Of a stretch of DNA of 64,000 bases, positions 255-55,465 are shown in pieces (the first letter of the stretch is position 1; every line of letters begins with the position of its first letter). A model generated the notes under the pieces. It did not search any database. It saw only the letters and a program-made list of their open reading frames with translations, and had not been told where the DNA came from. The position numbers were made by a program, and so were the translations under genes. Source of the DNA: Sulfuricaulis sp. (GTDB taxonomy: Bacteria > Pseudomonadota > Gammaproteobacteria > Acidiferrobacterales > Sulfurifustaceae); NCBI RefSeq assembly GCF_024653915.1, contig NZ_JANLGY010000020.1, positions 1 to 64,000 on the forward strand, written 5' to 3'.

Positions 255-947
255 ATGCCAAGAAAGCCTCGCTTCTATCTGCCGGGCATCCCCGCTCACA
301 TCGTCCAGCGCGGCAATTGTCGTCAAGCCACGTTTTTTGGCGACGAGGATTATGCCGCCTACCTAAGCTGGCTTCACGAAGGCGCGAAGCAACATGATTG
401 CGCCATCCATGCCTACGTGCTGATGACCAATCATGTTCACCTCCTGGTCACACCGCAGGACACCGAATCCATCAGCCGACTCATCCAATATGTCGGCCGT
501 CATTACGTGACGTATGTGAATCATGCCTATAGAAAAAGCGGCACACTTTGGGAAGGACGGCACAAAGGATGCCTGATCTCCAGCGATAACTACCTGCTCA
601 CCTGCATGCGTTATATCGAACTCAATCCGGTGCGTGCGGGCATAGTCGCCTCTCCGGGCGACTATCGCTGGTCAAGCTATCGAATCAATGCCAGCGGCGG
701 CGAGCATGCCACCATTACCCCGCATCCCTTGTATCTGGCACTTGGTCGGGGTTATGAAGAAAGAGGTTACGTCTACCGGGAATTGTTTCGAATCGCACTG
801 GATCAAGACCAAGTGCGTAATATCCGGGCCACAGTGCAAACTGGGACTCCGCTGGGGAATGATCGTTTCAAGCAACAGATTGAGCAAACCTTACAACGCA
901 AGGTTGGGCAATCGCGTCGAGGCCGACCTGAGAAAATTTCAGAATAA
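255..947 (+). CDS. REP-associated tyrosine (Y1) transposase
   Basis: A 230-residue protein of the IS200/RAYT transposase family. These are HUH single-strand endonucleases that form a covalent tyrosine link to DNA at REP-like hairpins. The N-terminus MPRKPRFYLPGIPAHIVQRG is the family hallmark. The HUH motif is H60-V-H62 (TNHVHLLVTP). The likely catalytic tyrosine is in GRHYVTYVNHAYRKSGTLWEG, at Y84 or Y87. The block YIELNPVRAGIV and the C-terminal GNDRFKQQIE are also present, so the gene looks complete and potentially active. It lies alone between perfect inverted repeats, and its stop codon belongs to the right repeat. Confidence 0.93.
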   Translation: MPRKPRFYLPGIPAHIVQRGNCRQATFFGDEDYAAYLSWLHEGAKQHDCAIHAYVLMTNHVHLLVTPQDTESISRLIQYVGRHYVTYVNHAYRKSGTLWEGRHKGCLISSDNYLLTCMRYIELNPVRAGIVASPGDYRWSSYRINASGGEHATITPHPLYLALGRGYEERGYVYRELFRIALDQDQVRNIRATVQTGTPLGNDRFKQQIEQTLQRKVGQSRRGRPEKISE

Positions 948-24401: not shown

Positions 24402-24884
24402 CTATCGGTCCCGGACAGTCAGGTCCCGTGCGAGAATAATCGCGTCTTCGCGGCCCTGGCGCGCTGGGTAATAGCTCTTGCGCAACCCGACTTCGTCGAA
24501 TCCCAACTTGGTGTAAAGCTTGTAAGCAGCGGCGTTGGACAGCCGCACTTCCAGCAACGCCACACGCGCCTTGTTCTGCCGGGCAAAATCGAGCAGGAAC
24601 AGCACCATGCCCTCGCCCAGCCCCTGTCGCTGATAATCCGGGTGAATACAGATATTCAGGATATGGCACTCACCCACGGTCACCGTCATGATGCCGTACC
24701 CAATAATTCCTTCCTGAGGGGATTCGTAGACATAACAATGGCAGCCCACACGCAGACAATCGCGGAAAATGGGCAGAGTCCAGGGAAATTCGTAGGCGAA
24801 ATTTTCCACCTCCATCACCGCCGCCAGGTCATGCCCGGTCATGGGACGCAGCAAGGGCAGGTTTGAAATGACGACAGCACTCAT
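24402..24884 (-). CDS. rimI: Ribosomal protein S18 alanine N-acetyltransferase
   Basis: 160 residues with a GNAT fold. The acetyl-CoA loop is HPDYQRQGLGEGM (Q/RxxGxG/A type), followed by ALLEVRLSNAAAYKLYTKLG and FDEVGLRKSYYP, which are typical of RimI. It acetylates the N-terminal alanine of S18. The start overlaps the stop of the uracil-DNA glycosylase gene as ATGA, so the pair is translationally coupled. Confidence 0.92.
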   Translation of the reverse strand: MSAVVISNLPLLRPMTGHDLAAVMEVENFAYEFPWTLPIFRDCLRVGCHCYVYESPQEGIIGYGIMTVTVGECHILNICIHPDYQRQGLGEGMVLFLLDFARQNKARVALLEVRLSNAAAYKLYTKLGFDEVGLRKSYYPARQGREDAIILARDLTVRDR

Positions 24885-26653
24885 GATTTTTCCATCTCGG
24901 CCTTGGCACGGCAGAGGTCGTCCCAGACCTTGCGCTTGTCGACCGGGTTGCGCAGCAGATAGGCCGGGTGATACGTCACAAACAGCGGCGTGCCGTGGTA
25001 GGACAACTTTTGCCCGCGTAATTTCCCCAACGGGACGTCAGTCTTGAGCAGGCTGTGCGCGGCATGCCGTCCGAGCGCCACGATCAGGCGCGGCTTGATC
25101 AGCCCAATCTGGCGCTGCAGATACGGTTCGCATTGCGCCACCTCTTCCGGCTGTGGATCACGGTTGCCGGGAGGACGACAATTATGCACGACGCCACCGG
25201 CAGTCACGAAGTTGTGTGTCTCCTCAACGTCAATGCAGAAGAAGGTCTTGTCCGTGCGCGGTCGATCGGTGATATCCTCGATTTCAAAGTCGTCGTAGAA
25301 CACTTCGGCCGGCCCGAGAGACAGACGGTCAGGGCAAAACGGGATGCGGCGAGCAACCTCAGGATGCAGCTTGTAGCGCATCGTGGGAGGAACATAAGGC
25401 GCGATTTGCTCGGAAAGCGCTCTCGTCGTCTCCACATCGAAATATAACCGCCCACGCGCCGCCTTGGCGCGAAGGCCGAGCTGTGACAGTCCCTGCTGCA
25501 GAATCAGCAAATCCTCTTCAGGGAAACCGCAAGTGGCAATCTCAGCAAGCGGCTGCCGCCTCGGGCGAATCCGCGTGTAACCATCATCCATGAACCAGAA
25601 CGCCAGCATCCGTTCGTTAAGCTGCGTCGCCATCCACGCTGGAACGCGTTTTCTGGAGGGATAGAAGTCCTTGCGAAGAATCCGCAGGGCGCGGTGCGCC
25701 AGAGTCCTGACCTGTATTACCGGATATGTCTTCTGTCCGCCGACCACGGCGGAGACGGAAAGCTCATCCACCCGTGGATCGAGCTCCTTGAGCAGATCGG
25801 CCTTGAACAGAGCATATTCACGTTGAACCGCCGAATGACCGAACGAGAGCATGGTCTTGTCCGCGGCCAGATATCCGTCACCGAGCAGCGTGCCACACAC
25901 AACGTCAAAAACGAGTGGACTCAGTCCCTGCCCTGTGGCGATCCGATCACCAGGTTGCAGGGCTTCCACGGCAACAAAGCCGCGTTGTGTGAGAACCTCA
26001 TGGTCCCCCGTTAACTGTATACCCACCCGGCTCTTGCCCGCGTTTTTTGCCAAGCGATAGGTCATGCGGAAAACGCGCCGGTTGCCGAGCGGTGATTCGT
26101 GCCAACCGGTGACACGGCGCGGCACCAGCCGGCCGACCGCATCCGCGGACATCACCAAACCGTCATAGCGGGAACGAACCAAACGGCCAATCCGCTCCCA
26201 AGAACCGTCGCCGAGCTGAACCAGGGCGTTGTACCTCAGACATTTCAAGACGTTCGCTATATAGACCTCCTCACGCTTCAGGCCCAGTGCAAACAGAATC
26301 GCATTCAGCAGCTGACCGGCCTTGCCCACGAACGGCTCGCCCTGCCTGTCCTCTTCCGCCCCGGGAGCCTCGCCGATGAACATCCACTTGGCCTGGCGAT
26401 GACCGACACCGAAAACCGTTTGCGTGCGCGTGGTGTGCAACGAACACTTTGTGCACGCGCGCACTTCCGCTTCCAGCTTTGTCCAGTCCTGGGTGTTGGT
26501 TGTGTCACTTGGCGCTCTGGACAGAACCGGTTCAATGGCTGTTTCCGGTGCGGCCAAATCCGGTGTATGACGCGGTTCCCAGCGCGTAATGCCGAGCGCG
26601 TCGAGATACTGCCGACGACGTATCTCCTCCTGTACGTTCATGGCTTTAAGCAT
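24881..26653 (-). CDS. Family 4 uracil-DNA glycosylase with intein
   Basis: 590 residues, of which 236 are host protein. Extein motifs are motif A GEAPGAEEDRQGEPFVGKAG (94-113) and motif B HPAYLLRNP (562-570). Four cysteines for a 4Fe-4S cluster are seen: C67 and C70 (CTKC), then C492 and C508. The enzyme excises uracil from DNA to start base-excision repair. Residues 138-491 form an intein, described separately. Splicing would join NVLK to CRPPGNRDP and restore a normal-length enzyme. The start could also be Met5. It lies 25 bp after leuA on the same strand and overlaps rimI. Confidence 0.93.
   Translation of the reverse strand: MLKAMNVQEEIRRRQYLDALGITRWEPRHTPDLAAPETAIEPVLSRAPSDTTNTQDWTKLEAEVRACTKCSLHTTRTQTVFGVGHRQAKWMFIGEAPGAEEDRQGEPFVGKAGQLLNAILFALGLKREEVYIANVLKCLRYNALVQLGDGSWERIGRLVRSRYDGLVMSADAVGRLVPRRVTGWHESPLGNRRVFRMTYRLAKNAGKSRVGIQLTGDHEVLTQRGFVAVEALQPGDRIATGQGLSPLVFDVVCGTLLGDGYLAADKTMLSFGHSAVQREYALFKADLLKELDPRVDELSVSAVVGGQKTYPVIQVRTLAHRALRILRKDFYPSRKRVPAWMATQLNERMLAFWFMDDGYTRIRPRRQPLAEIATCGFPEEDLLILQQGLSQLGLRAKAARGRLYFDVETTRALSEQIAPYVPPTMRYKLHPEVARRIPFCPDRLSLGPAEVFYDDFEIEDITDRPRTDKTFFCIDVEETHNFVTAGGVVHNCRPPGNRDPQPEEVAQCEPYLQRQIGLIKPRLIVALGRHAAHSLLKTDVPLGKLRGQKLSYHGTPLFVTYHPAYLLRNPVDKRKVWDDLCRAKAEMEKS
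25181..26242 (-). other. Intein with LAGLIDADG homing endonuclease
   Basis: 354 residues inside the uracil-DNA glycosylase. Block A starts at Cys138 (CLRYNALVQLGDGSW). Block B is LTGDHEVLTQ, with the TxxH motif. Two LAGLIDADG-type helices follow: VVCGTLLGDGYLA (251-263) and AFWFMDDGYTR (351-361). Block F/G is FCIDVEETHNFVTAGGVVHN (472-491), followed by Cys492 as the +1 nucleophile. All residues needed for protein splicing are present (Cys1, block B Thr/His, His-Asn end, Cys+1). The endonuclease helices keep acidic residues, so homing may be active. Confidence 0.93.
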
Positions 26654-33546: not shown

Positions 33547-34980
33547 TTACTGTCGGCGCCAGCTGGTCCGGCCACCGGCATCCTCCAGAATGACTCCCTG
33601 AGCCTTGAGTTCGTCGCGCAAGCGGTCCGATTCGGTCCAATTCTTGTTCTTGCGCGCCTCTGAACGCCGGGTAATCAGGGTCTCGATTTGCGCATCGCTC
33701 AGGCCACCGGCGGCACCACCACGCAAAAAGGCCTGGGGGTCCAGCTGTAAAAGACCGAGTATCCCGCCCATGCGACGCAGGGCCGCACCCAGCGGAGCGG
33801 CCGCCGTTGAGCCATCCTCGCGTAGCTTGTTGATGACACGCGCCAGCTCAAACAACACCGCGAGCGCACCGGGCGTATTGAAGTCGTCATCCATGGCGGC
33901 TTGAAACTTGTCCTCGTACTCCGCTGCTGCCCCTCCCTCATCAGCCGGAGTCAGATCCTTGAACGCCAGATAAAAACGGGTCAAGGCGGCTTTGGCGCCC
34001 TGCAAATTCTCGTCGGAATAATCGAGCGGGCTGCGGTAATGGCTCCCCAGAATGAAATAGCGTACTACTTCCGGCTCGAATTTCTTCAGTACTTCGCGCA
34101 CCGTAAAGAAATTGCCGAGTGATTTCGACATTTTTTCTTCGTTGAGTCGCACGAAGCCGACATGCATCCAGGTGTTGACGAAGCTCTCGCCCGTCGCTGC
34201 CTCGCTCTGGGCAATTTCGTTTTCATGATGCGGAAACTTGAGGTCCATACCGCCGCCGTGGATGTCAAAGTGACTGCCGAGACAGGCAGTAGACATGGCC
34301 GAGCATTCAATATGCCAACCGGGACGGCCCGGCCCCCAAGGAGATTCCCACTGCGGTTCGCCGGGCTTGGCCGCCTTCCACAGGACAAAATCAAGCGGAT
34401 CGTCCTTGTCCTCATCGATCTCCACGCGCGCCCCGATTTTCAATTCATCCAGAGTCTTGCCGGAAAGCGCGCCATAGGGCTTGAATTTTCGCACACGATA
34501 ATAGACGTCCGTCGCTCTCGACGTCCTGTCTCCCGCGACACTTGTGCGTCCCTGCACATCGTTGTTTTTCGCGGCGTAGGCAAAATCAAGCTCAACCAAC
34601 CGGGCGATCATGTCGCGAATCTGGGGCATGTGCACCGTCGCGCGTGGCTCCTGATCCGGCGGGATTACACCCAAAGCCGCGGCGTCTTCATTCATAGCCT
34701 GAATAAAGCGTTCCGTAAGCGCGCTGATATCTTCGCCGTTCTCTTTCGCCCGATTAATGATCTTGTCATCTATGTCGGTGATGTTGCGAATATAAGTCAC
34801 CGCGTAACCGCGCGAGCGCAAATAGCGCGCCACCATGTCGAACACCACCATGACGCGTGCGTGGCCGAGATGACAGTAGTCGTACACCGTCATGCCGCAC
34901 ACGTACAGGCGGACCTGTCCGGGTGTGATGGGGGTAAAGGTTTCTTTCTTCCGGGTAAGGCTGTTGTAAATCTGGAGCAT
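33547..34980 (-). CDS. cysS: Cysteinyl-tRNA synthetase with in-frame 17-residue insert
   Basis: 477 residues. Class I synthetase that charges tRNA-Cys. HIGH is CHLGH (36-40) in [11 protein letters not shown]; zinc ligands include C28 and the C of [15 protein letters not shown] is KMSKSLGNF. Residues 141-157 ([17 protein letters not shown]) interrupt the family segment that normally reads ...[10 protein letters not shown]. The same peptide element occurs in trpF, so it is an inserted repeat. The protein frame stays open and all catalytic motifs are intact, so the gene is presumably functional. Confidence 0.96.
34510..34560 (-). repeat. 51-bp in-frame coding insertion element, cysS copy
   Basis: On the coding strand it begins gatgtgcagggacgcacaag and ends gagcgacg, encoding 17 residues ([17 protein letters not shown]). 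It contains gtgc-agggac-gcac and gtcgc...gcgac pairings. Its partner at 54854-54904 in trpF has the same length and about 80% identity. Confidence 0.85.
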
Positions 34981-53595: not shown

Positions 53596-54794
53596 CAGAA
53601 TTTGATTCCTTCAAGGGTTGCGACCGTGTGGATGTCCTTGTCGCCACGGCCGGAGAGATTGACCACGATGATCTTGTCCTTCCCGAGCTCCGGCGCGAGT
53701 TTTTTCGCGTAGGCCAGCGCGTGACTGGATTCCAGCGCCGGCATGATGCCCTCGGTGCGGGTCAGTTCGTGGAATGACTCAAGTGCTTCCTTGTCGGTAA
53801 TGGAAACATACTGCGCGCGTCCCGTATCTTTGAGGTAGGCATGTTCCGGACCCACGCCCGGGTAGTCGAGCCCGGCAGAGATGGAATGGGTTTCGGTAAT
53901 CTGGCCGTCATCGGTTTCCAATAAATAGGTGCGATTGCCGTGCAGCACGCCGGGCCTGCCGGCACACAGGGTCGCGGCATGCTTGCCCGTCTGCACACCT
54001 TCGCCGGCGGCTTCGACGCCGACCATGGCAACACCTTTATCCTTGATGAAGGGATAAAACAGGCCGAGGGCATTGGAACCGCCGCCGACACAGGCGACCA
54101 GTGCGTCTGGCAGACGTTTTTCCAGTTCCTTGATCTGCGTGCGCGTCTCGCGCCCGATCACGCTCTGGAAATCACGCACCATCATCGGATAGGGATGCGG
54201 GCCGGCGACGGTGCCGATAATATAAAAGGTGTTCTCGACATTTGTCACCCAGTCGCGCATGGCTTCATTCAACGCGTCCTTGAGCGTTTTCGATCCGGAT
54301 TCGACCGGTACCACCTCGGCGCCCAGCAGCTTCATGCGATAGACATTGATCGCCTGACGCTTCATATCCTCGGAACCCATGTACACCACGCATTGCATGC
54401 CGAAGCGCGCGGCCACGGTGGCCGTCGCCACACCATGCTGGCCAGCACCGGTCTCGGCGATCACACGTTTCTTGCCCATGTGACGCGCCAGCAACGCCTG
54501 GCCGATGGTGTTGTTGATCTTGTGCGCACCGGTGTGGTTCAGGTCTTCGCGCTTCAGATAAATCTTTGCTCCGCCCCAGTTTTCAGTCAGGCGCTTGGCG
54601 AAATACAGCGGGCTGGGACGACCGACGTAATGGCGCAGGTCGTTGTCGAACTCTTTCTGGAATGCCGGTTTGTCACGCAGGCGCTCATACGCCTCACGCA
54701 ACTCCTTCAGCGGCTGCATCAGGGTTTCGGAAACGAAGATACCGCCATAATCGCCGAAGTGGCCGCGCTTGTCCGGTAGATCATAGGCGCTCAT
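53595..54794 (-). CDS. trpB: Tryptophan synthase beta subunit
   Basis: 399 residues. The PLP lysine lies in [19 protein letters not shown] (about residue 88). The phosphate-binding [10 protein letters not shown] and the TrpB1-type [16 protein letters not shown] block are present. It condenses indole and serine to tryptophan. It overlaps trpF and trpA by a few bases, so the whole set is translationally coupled. Confidence 0.98.
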
Positions 54795-55465
54795 ACCACC
54801 CCTCTCACCGCTTCGATGAAGGCAGAAATTTTCTGAGCATCTTTGATGCCTTTGGTCGCTCCTGCGCGTCCTGCACCCGCGACATTTGTGCGTCCCTGCA
54901 CATCAGCCTGCACCTCCACGCCGCTAGAAACATCCACGGCAAAGGGGCGCACCGTGCGTACCGCCTCGGCGACGTTCTCCGGTGTGAGGCCGCCAGCCAG
55001 AATCACTGGCTTGCCGAGATCGGAAGGCACCCGGCTCCAATCGAAGGCTTGACCGGAACCGCCGTCGACATGCGCCACTGCCGTGTCGAGCAACAGGCCT
55101 TCGGCATCGGCGTAGCGGCGCGCATTGTCGTGCAGATTGACATCGGCTTGCATGTGGATGGCTTTGATGTAGGGCCGGTGATAGCGGCGGCACTGTTCAG
55201 GGGTTTCGTTGCCGTGAAATTGTAACAGATCGAGCGTTACGTGTTTGAGGACGGTTTCCACGGTATCGGGCGCGGCATTCACGAACAAGCCCACCACGGT
55301 GACGAACGGCGGCAGCGCACGTACGATGGCTGCCGCCTGATCTGGCTTCACGTAACGTGGGCTCTTCGGCTCGAACACGAAACCGATGGCGTCAGCCCCG
55401 GCCTGCGCCGCCGCCATGGCATCCTCAATGCGGGTGATGCCGCATATTTTCACGCGTGTGCGCAT
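54791..55465 (-). CDS. trpF: Phosphoribosylanthranilate isomerase with in-frame 17-residue insert
   Basis: 224 residues; without the insert it would be the usual 207 or so. TIM-barrel enzyme; catalytic Cys8 (VKICGITR) and Asp127 (LLLDTAV) are present. Residues 188-204 ([17 protein letters not shown]) split the conserved end VDVSSGVEV...[13 protein letters not shown]. The same peptide occurs in CysS. The insert falls in the beta8-alpha8 loop region close to the phosphate-binding site, so the protein must tolerate it there. The reading frame is intact. Confidence 0.96.
54854..54904 (-). repeat. 51-bp in-frame coding insertion element, trpF copy
   Basis: On the coding strand it begins gatgtgcagggacgcacaaa and ends gagcgacc, encoding 17 residues ([17 protein letters not shown]). 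It has the same length and the same gtgc...gcac and gtcgc...gcgac pairings as the cysS copy at 34510-34560. Confidence 0.85.

Follow-up and report, generated by a model that had tools for sequence, protein, structure and literature searches.

Rickettsia palindromic elements (RPEs) are dispersed palindromic DNA units that lie between genes and also in frame within conserved genes, where the insert is tolerated. PMC2229807 gives them a length of 105–146 bp, 12-bp terminal inverted repeats, and Rickettsia as host. The same paper attributes terminal inverted repeats, target duplication, and terminal TA to the bacterial MITEs Correia/NEMIS, ERIC/RU-1, and RUP (PMC2229807). Among REP sequences, PMC3733652 describes the GTAG REP/RAYT group as short DNA hairpins whose mobilisation is presumed to proceed through a single strand, with known intragenic units, and the CGTC REPs as having stems of 8–9 bp, loops of 4–5, intragenic units, and no dedicated transposase found.

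The window analysed here, a 64,000-nucleotide stretch of a Sulfuricaulis sp. contig, carries two copies of a 51-bp element, one in cysS and one in trpF. We consider it probable (roughly 0.7) that these belong to a family of non-autonomous mobile DNA, with a top strand of two hairpins, that is moved in trans and survives in genes as a bland loop. The copies are dispersed, nearly fixed in length, and present in coding genes; their stems show compensatory change, and they are inserted precisely, without duplication, even into one another. Within the literature reached, the family appears to be undescribed: searches of main texts, by the sequence of the peptide and of the DNA as well, yielded no description of it. 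Palindromes inserted in frame are best known from Rickettsia and from scattered intragenic REPs, and the element is a repeat of that known kind.

The initial annotation had compared the element to RPEs, and the comparison holds for behaviour, i.e., in-frame insertion in conserved genes (146 of 252 copies lie in coding frames), but not for membership. Unlike RPEs, the element is 51 bp long, comprises two unlike hairpins, has no such terminal repeats, and occurs in Gammaproteobacteria and one family outside that class rather than in Rickettsia. Correia/NEMIS, ERIC/RU-1, and RUP are likewise non-autonomous, with some in-frame fusions reported; in contrast to these classical MITEs, the 51-bp element has neither terminal inverted repeats nor any target duplication that we could find. 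The IS200/IS605-type family is defined by the absence of target duplication and by insertion beside a left-flank target, and the 51-bp element displays both features. Like the CGTC REPs, the element has intragenic units, and no dedicated transposase was found for it; its copies that start with GACG show the CGTC tag at that end, though only when the opposite strand is read. The element differs in that its hairpin 1 combines a stem of 4 bp with a loop of 6 bases, its second hairpin has purine internal loops, and many copies start with GAT or GCC. Overall, the element works like RPEs and intragenic REPs but departs from them in tag, size, terminal repeats, or linkage to a transposase wherever these were tested.

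Two in-frame copies and their empty sites

The cysS gene (33547..34980, reverse strand; PF01406 at E 6e-132, with PF09190 and PF23493) carries the first copy at 34510..34560 (reverse strand), occupying codons 141–157, directly after which the protein continues with DVYYRVRKF. The second copy (54854..54904, reverse strand) occupies codons 188–204 of trpF (54791..55465, reverse strand; PF00697 at E 1.6e-50). The covariance model matched these copies with 75.8 bits (E 3e-16) and 64.7 bits (E 1.3e-13), respectively; when run over the window with filters off, it returned both along with one further match at E ≤ 1 (E 0.94). The copies are identical at 19 of their first 20 bases and end in GAGCGACG and GAGCGACC, as had been claimed from the sequence. 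Alignment and covariance model together confirm the earlier claim that a single 51-bp, 17-codon element lies in frame in both genes.

Alignment with homologues, the check that the initial annotation had proposed, showed that homologues lack the insert in both families, with a precise empty site in CysS. At the CysS site, exactly 17 residues are missing in 16 of the 16 family homologues that cover it (one further homologue, too short to reach the site, was left out), and no other gap occurs there. A 17-residue gap is also seen at the insert in 3tqo, a solved CysRS and the best match to CysS among solved structures. The TrpF insert is missing in all 17 of the other homologues; here the net difference amounts to 18 residues, such that its edge is less clean than the exact edge in CysS. 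The outcome that had been named as contrary to a mobile element, the same segments in homologues from many unrelated lineages, did not occur.

An AlphaFold 2 (AF2) model of TrpF (mean pLDDT 84.6, 17 sequences) places residues 188–203 between a strand (176–179) and a helix (210–221), as the one long stretch with pLDDT below 50, the other low stretch being residues 134–136; the insert is thus modelled as a disordered loop. The corresponding model of CysS was poor (mean pLDDT 59.2, 15 sequences) and was not used. For annotators and structural biologists alike, these copies serve as a warning that a 17-residue segment of this kind is not part of the protein family.

Elsewhere in the window, we noted an ORF of 590 a.a. 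encoding a family 4 uracil-DNA glycosylase (24881-26653, reverse strand), in which the UDG match is split into two stretches. By eye, the intervening block appears intein-like, starting with C-L-R-Y-N-A-L-V and ending with V-V-H-N followed by C.

Hairpin anatomy and a possible regulatory RNA

The consensus, GAYGTRCAGGGAMGYACWARTGYCGCGGGAGRCAGGAYGYCGGGAGCGRCC, has the ends GAYGTRC...GCGRCC and contains two hairpins. Hairpin 1 consists of a 4-bp stem and a 6-base loop (GTGC / AGGGAC / GCAC in the cysS copy, 34544..34557, reverse strand), while in hairpin 2 a GGGA/GGGA internal loop separates a 5-bp stem from a 3-bp stem that is capped by a 5-base loop (GTCGC..GAC / AGGAC / GTC..GCGAC with purine internal loops, 34511..34539, reverse strand). 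Across the 80 distinct copies, standard pairs fill 97.4% of 960 cells (99.4% for helix 1, in hairpin 1, and 98.8% and 92.5% for helices 2 and 3, in hairpin 2), and pairing falls to 17.5–42.4% when the partner is slid out of register. Double changes were counted in 101 cells, compared to 26.7 in shuffles, with both-side changes in eight of the 12 pairs, an excess whose weight is limited by the kinship of the copies; further pair types did not exceed shuffles in these copies (17 vs. 15.8). Only eight of the 960 cells are G-U. Such compensation by double change with so few G-U pairs suggests that the structure is needed in DNA.

The cysS copy folds better than expected both as RNA (z −2.78) and as DNA (z −2.61). 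Both hairpins of the cysS copy form in its RNA fold; in its DNA fold hairpin 1 is retained, and two smaller hairpins take the place of hairpin 2 as drawn. A variant with an extra hairpin block within the loop of hairpin 2 was seen at four loci (L050, L056, L083, and L102), two of which (L083 and L102) still appear in frame, with 33 residues in total by reading of the sequence.

The same hairpins could instead be those of a functional RNA, in which two GGA loops form a portable CsrA/RsmA site and copies spread or are kept through Csr/Rsm control of the host mRNA or through titration of the protein. PMC4005645 describes the high-affinity Csr/Rsm motif as an ANGGAX hexaloop that sits immediately on top of a stem. 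Hairpin 1 has this feature, as its hexaloop A-N-G-G-A-N (conservation of 0.99, 0.84, 1.0, 0.94, 0.96, and 0.36 over 234 copies) sits on a closing C-G pair that is 94–100% conserved in the same copies. Hairpin 2, which resembles a CsrB repeat, shows A-GGA-N on its stem, and the two GGA are 22 nt apart on the consensus. Copies in genes also lie more often in sense than in antisense (115 vs. 31), and third positions of the insert in valS are more conserved than those of its flanks (discussed below). However, the sense bias is also accounted for by a benign peptide, and the hairpin 1 motif is as intact in antisense ORF copies (1.0, n = 28) as in sense copies (0.947, n = 113). The same holds for Watson-Crick pairing (0.958 antisense, n = 28, vs. 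0.948 sense, n = 113), while copies outside ORFs are less intact (0.866, n = 93). The scarcity of G-U pairs also speaks against an RNA, as does the loss of the loop-2 GGA in copies of one shared site (L052, L067, L074, L083, L100, and L365). We regard a regulatory RNA as unlikely.

In a search of the window against Rfam at gathering score, no family fell over either copy. The sole match was the cspA thermoregulator (RF01766; 16899-17283, reverse strand), which scored 82.6 bits, its gathering score being 78.

Distribution, host genes, and reading frames

A search of the genome and its relatives had been proposed as a check, and further copies were found. The covariance model, built from 80 copies, returned 29 matches at E ≤ 0.1 in the own genome, 25 of them at E of about 1e-8 or better; given these 25 matches and the z-scores of the cysS fold, the element is not a product of chance. 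As a DNA query, the cysS copy gave 13 matches at E ≤ 0.01 in the own genome; across the genus, family, and order, 21 of the 41 genomes were positive, counting the own genome. Within the genus, seven of nine genomes were positive at E ≤ 0.001 by the covariance model, one of which (G008) held 58 matches, some overlapping. An even draw across the class yielded 35 of 274 genomes at E ≤ 1e-10 (self included), representing 30 of 221 genera and 28 families, and a phylum draw yielded seven of 398 at E ≤ 1e-9 (self included), with the four outside the class all belonging to one family. Approximately 21 and 14 candidates were scored per genome in the class and phylum draws, respectively, so copy numbers from these draws are lower bounds. 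Both further copies and empty sites occur in relatives, their joint absence having been named as evidence against mobility. One genome of the class draw (G152; 1.4 Mb, listed as complete) gave 20 matches at E ≤ 1e-10 from only 21 candidates scored, a situation similar to that of Rickettsia, with many repeats in a reduced genome.

Among named genomes, an exact 25-base degenerate pattern, which is biased towards intact copies, was present in 68 contig stretches. These include records of Halomonas, Vreelandella, Salinicola, Rhodanobacter, Methylovulum, Methylomonas, Sedimenticola, Thiodiazotropha, Endozoicomonas, Neptuniibacter, Thiohalophilus, and Sulfuricaulis, further records named only Gammaproteobacteria, Proteobacteria, or Pseudomonadota, and one labelled as a Halobacteria archaeon MAG, which may be misbinned; Ca. 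Muproteobacteria is also a carrier.

Phages and plasmids were considered as vehicles and ruled against: no viral contig held an exact 24-base pattern, and with one copy as the query (E ≤ 0.01), phage records gave one match, over 28 of 51 bases, and plasmids gave one, in Lonsdalea populi. With the same query and threshold, no match was found among 5,426 E. coli genomes. The L. populi plasmid match (NZ_CP072857.1, L382 2501-2546) is partial, covering 46 of 51 bases at 85.1%, and lies antisense in an annotated primase gene.

From the loci collected, we compiled the distinct copies that scored 30 bits or more, 252 in all, leaving out run-off copies, weaker overlapping matches, and repeats of one copy with the same 12 bases of context. 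As the initial annotation had proposed, copies were sought both in genes and between them: 146 lie in coding frames and 106 outside, as judged by a codon score that was trained on 19 window genes and may misjudge other genomes. In the own genome, 23 distinct copies reach 30 bits, and 15 of them lie in ORFs. The hosts identified there by family match are CysS, TrpF, Aat, CoaBC, MoaA, DnaG, an Ogt-type methyltransferase, PurD, a ZIP transporter, CopB, a multicopper oxidase, a GltB-like glutamate synthase, and a UPF0004/radical SAM/TRAM protein; a BenC-like reductase scored below its family cut-off, and one host ORF had no NCBIfam match. In other genomes, the family test identified ValS, GcvT, and RecG, and flanking peptides read by eye point to MurC, MurD, MetH, Lon, TsaD, Tgt, and CysN as likely further hosts. 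A compact unit is thereby found in core enzymes (tRNA synthetases, primase, and amino-acid and nucleotide enzymes) across at least 28 families.

Copies in ORFs are strongly biased in orientation and frame, with 115 in sense (100, 10, and 5 in the three frames) and 31 in antisense (20, 9, and 2). When grouped into 111 site clusters, 83 are sense and 28 antisense (P 1.7e-7), and 68 use frame +0 (P 6e-26 against 1/6); the merging of tandem copies of several genes into single clusters lowers the number of sense sites. Length is 51 bp in 141 of the 146 ORF copies, compared to 93 of the 106 outside, a comparison that is partly circular, as a frame-breaking copy would score as outside. Frames +0, +1, −0, and −1 are stop-free in 138, 127, 139, and 140 of the 141 ORF copies of 51 bp and in 80, 79, 91, and 93 of the 93 non-ORF copies of that length. 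In the consensus, the favoured-frame peptide is free of cysteine, which occurs in all five other frames. Survival in genes would follow from these properties, namely 17 whole codons (51 = 17 × 3), four of six frames without stops in most copies, and, in the commonest frame, a small peptide lacking cysteine that would form a bland loop tolerated by folded proteins. Openness of all six frames was also considered as a special design and was not upheld; all six are open in 68 of the 141 ORF copies and 38 of the 93 other copies of 51 bp, and in 6.6% of compositional shuffles.

The predominance of one peptide frame (100 of 115 sense ORF copies) and the occurrence of some sites in several species would also be expected if protein function had maintained ancestral coding segments or a peptide motif that arose by convergence. 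We consider this very improbable, given that the host genes are unrelated, all six frames are used, 106 of 252 copies lie outside ORFs, close relatives have empty sites, and changes in the DNA are compensatory. The earlier claim of a mobile palindromic element that survives inside ORFs is supported by the further copies, the copies outside ORFs, the empty sites, the nesting described below, and the unrelated hosts. Movement itself was not observed, and sites shared between species indicate that some copies were inherited or transferred with their gene.

A few sites that recur in several species, which the initial annotation had not foreseen, were found in valS of Halomonadaceae-type genomes and in a gene carried on contigs of Methylovulum, Methylomonas, and Methylomicrobium. 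In the G352 family, Halomonadaceae-like by its match to a named Halomonas ValS, 61 genomes had a match and 30 had the locus, with the insert present in two. Two clades of this family include genomes with the site filled, amid relatives without the insert. The valS copy is the only copy in these two genomes, and ten of ten tested non-carriers have none. When six named carriers were added to the valS tree, carriers and non-carriers were mixed in both clades. Altered codons beside the insert were read from the alignments in eight of eight carriers and none of 28 non-carriers, from which the valS allele seems to have had a common origin, and then either to have moved or to have been lost many times.

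Third positions are unusually conserved within some of these inserts. In one valS pair, found irrespective of the element, 15 of 17 are conserved within the insert, compared to 320 of 515 in the flank (P 0.02), or eight of nine when restricted to positions outside the searched 25-mer (P 0.09). Across all 28 pairs, which are not independent, eight or nine of nine are conserved outside the 25-mer, with P under 0.05 in ten. At a second shared site (L052, L067, L074, and L100), 16–17 of 17 third positions are conserved against 28–41 of 58, a figure subject to the same search bias as valS; at L365, a locus of this site found by the model alone, the values are 12–13 of 17 against 23–30 of 58. The host gene at these four loci appears HsdM-like by reading, and no NCBIfam family was found for L067 at 1e-20. 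Such conservation could reflect selection on nucleotides. An element that joins both readings, i.e., a mobile double CsrA/RsmA site carried in housekeeping mRNAs as 17 harmless codons, with some copies (valS and at least one other site) kept by nucleotide selection, or passed from lineage to lineage at a single fixed site with a short flanking tract in the manner of a homing element, is a speculative proposal to which we give a low, though not negligible, probability.

Insertion sites and a putative mobilising enzyme

Returning to non-autonomous mobile DNA as the preferred reading, the flanks of 194 copies were compared in a sample that includes tandem and orthologous copies. The base at −1 is C (0.75) or T (0.22), i.e., a pyrimidine in 97%, with near-identical values in 71 non-ORF copies (C 0.73, T 0.21); a purine is present at −2 in 77%, and the right flank shows a weak bias. 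No target-site duplication was found, as identity between the element end and the flank is close to expectation for one or two bases. At three to five bases, an excess is seen (26 vs. 16.3 expected for three, and 17 vs. 6.8 for five), which probably stems from tandem copies left in the sample.

Copies are also inserted into other copies. The coaBC gene of the own genome holds a single copy (L121), while that of G008 holds the same copy with a second, reversed, inside it (L184), the insertion point being GCC|GCGGG, without duplication. The same point of the outer copy is used at L178, L179, L180, and L200 (G008) and at L013 (own genome). Tandem copies at exactly 51 bp were noted in ten named contig stretches among the pattern matches, two of which are poorly resolved or degenerate. 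Several of these arrays are in frame, including one of three copies within the GcvT gene of a Rhodanobacter MAG (L064, by family test); L065 and L101 hold two in-frame tandem copies in similar genes.

Mechanistically, the element would move in single-stranded form, its hairpins serving as the recognition site for an enzyme acting in trans, and would insert after a pyrimidine, usually with a purine before it (often GC or AC). Y1 HUH enzymes make no target duplication and have a one-sided target preference. Given that the element shows the same two features, a Y1 (HUH) type transposase is the most likely mobiliser. The window encodes one (255..947, forward strand; PF01797 at E 1.3e-12), with no element copy in its locus (L306). 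In total, 31 Y1 matches were found in seven of eight carrier genomes, of which 30 have a locus (about 1.5 kb on each side, some cut by contig ends), and 29 of these 30 are without an element copy. At the remaining locus (L322), a weak copy (28.9 bits) lies directly behind the Y1 match; by reading, it may interrupt the Y1 gene, or it could be a flanking copy. In G277, which gave ten element matches in the class draw, no Y1_Tnp match was found, and no ORF of at least 60 a.a. at the element loci resembled the Y1 of the window at E 1e-4. A Y1 transposase as a linked partner is therefore unsupported, with one doubtful locus among 30.

The same loci bear on the possibility that this is an ordinary GTAG-type REP family with a dedicated RAYT transposase. 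Such a family would likewise be palindromic, dispersed, and partly in genes, and Y1 genes are indeed present in seven of eight carrier genomes, one of them beside the weak copy. In contrast, the consensus has no GTAG (or GTGG) tetranucleotide beside a hairpin, the unit consists of two unlike hairpins, and RAYT-flanking copies, a feature of such families, were seen at none of 29 Y1 loci and doubtfully at one (the 28.9-bit copy). REPs are also mostly intergenic according to PMC3733652, whereas the present element has many in-gene copies and in-frame 51-bp tandem arrays. An ordinary REP family is accordingly improbable. Taken as mobile DNA moved in trans, the element opens two old questions to direct testing, namely by what route folded proteins gain new loops and what enzyme mobilises short hairpins.

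Two larger repeat contexts were also noted. At L289, L290, L292, L293, L294, and L295 (G277) and at L077, the two arms of a larger inverted repeat enclose copies (GGCGGCAGGGAC [element] GCCGCC), which suggests a composite repeat. At L214, L282, and L297, copies lie within similar flanks, CTCCGCGC or CTCTGCGC on one side and CTCCGCG or CCTCTGTGG on the other, which we take to be a common dispersed repeat and which would make an independent empty site.
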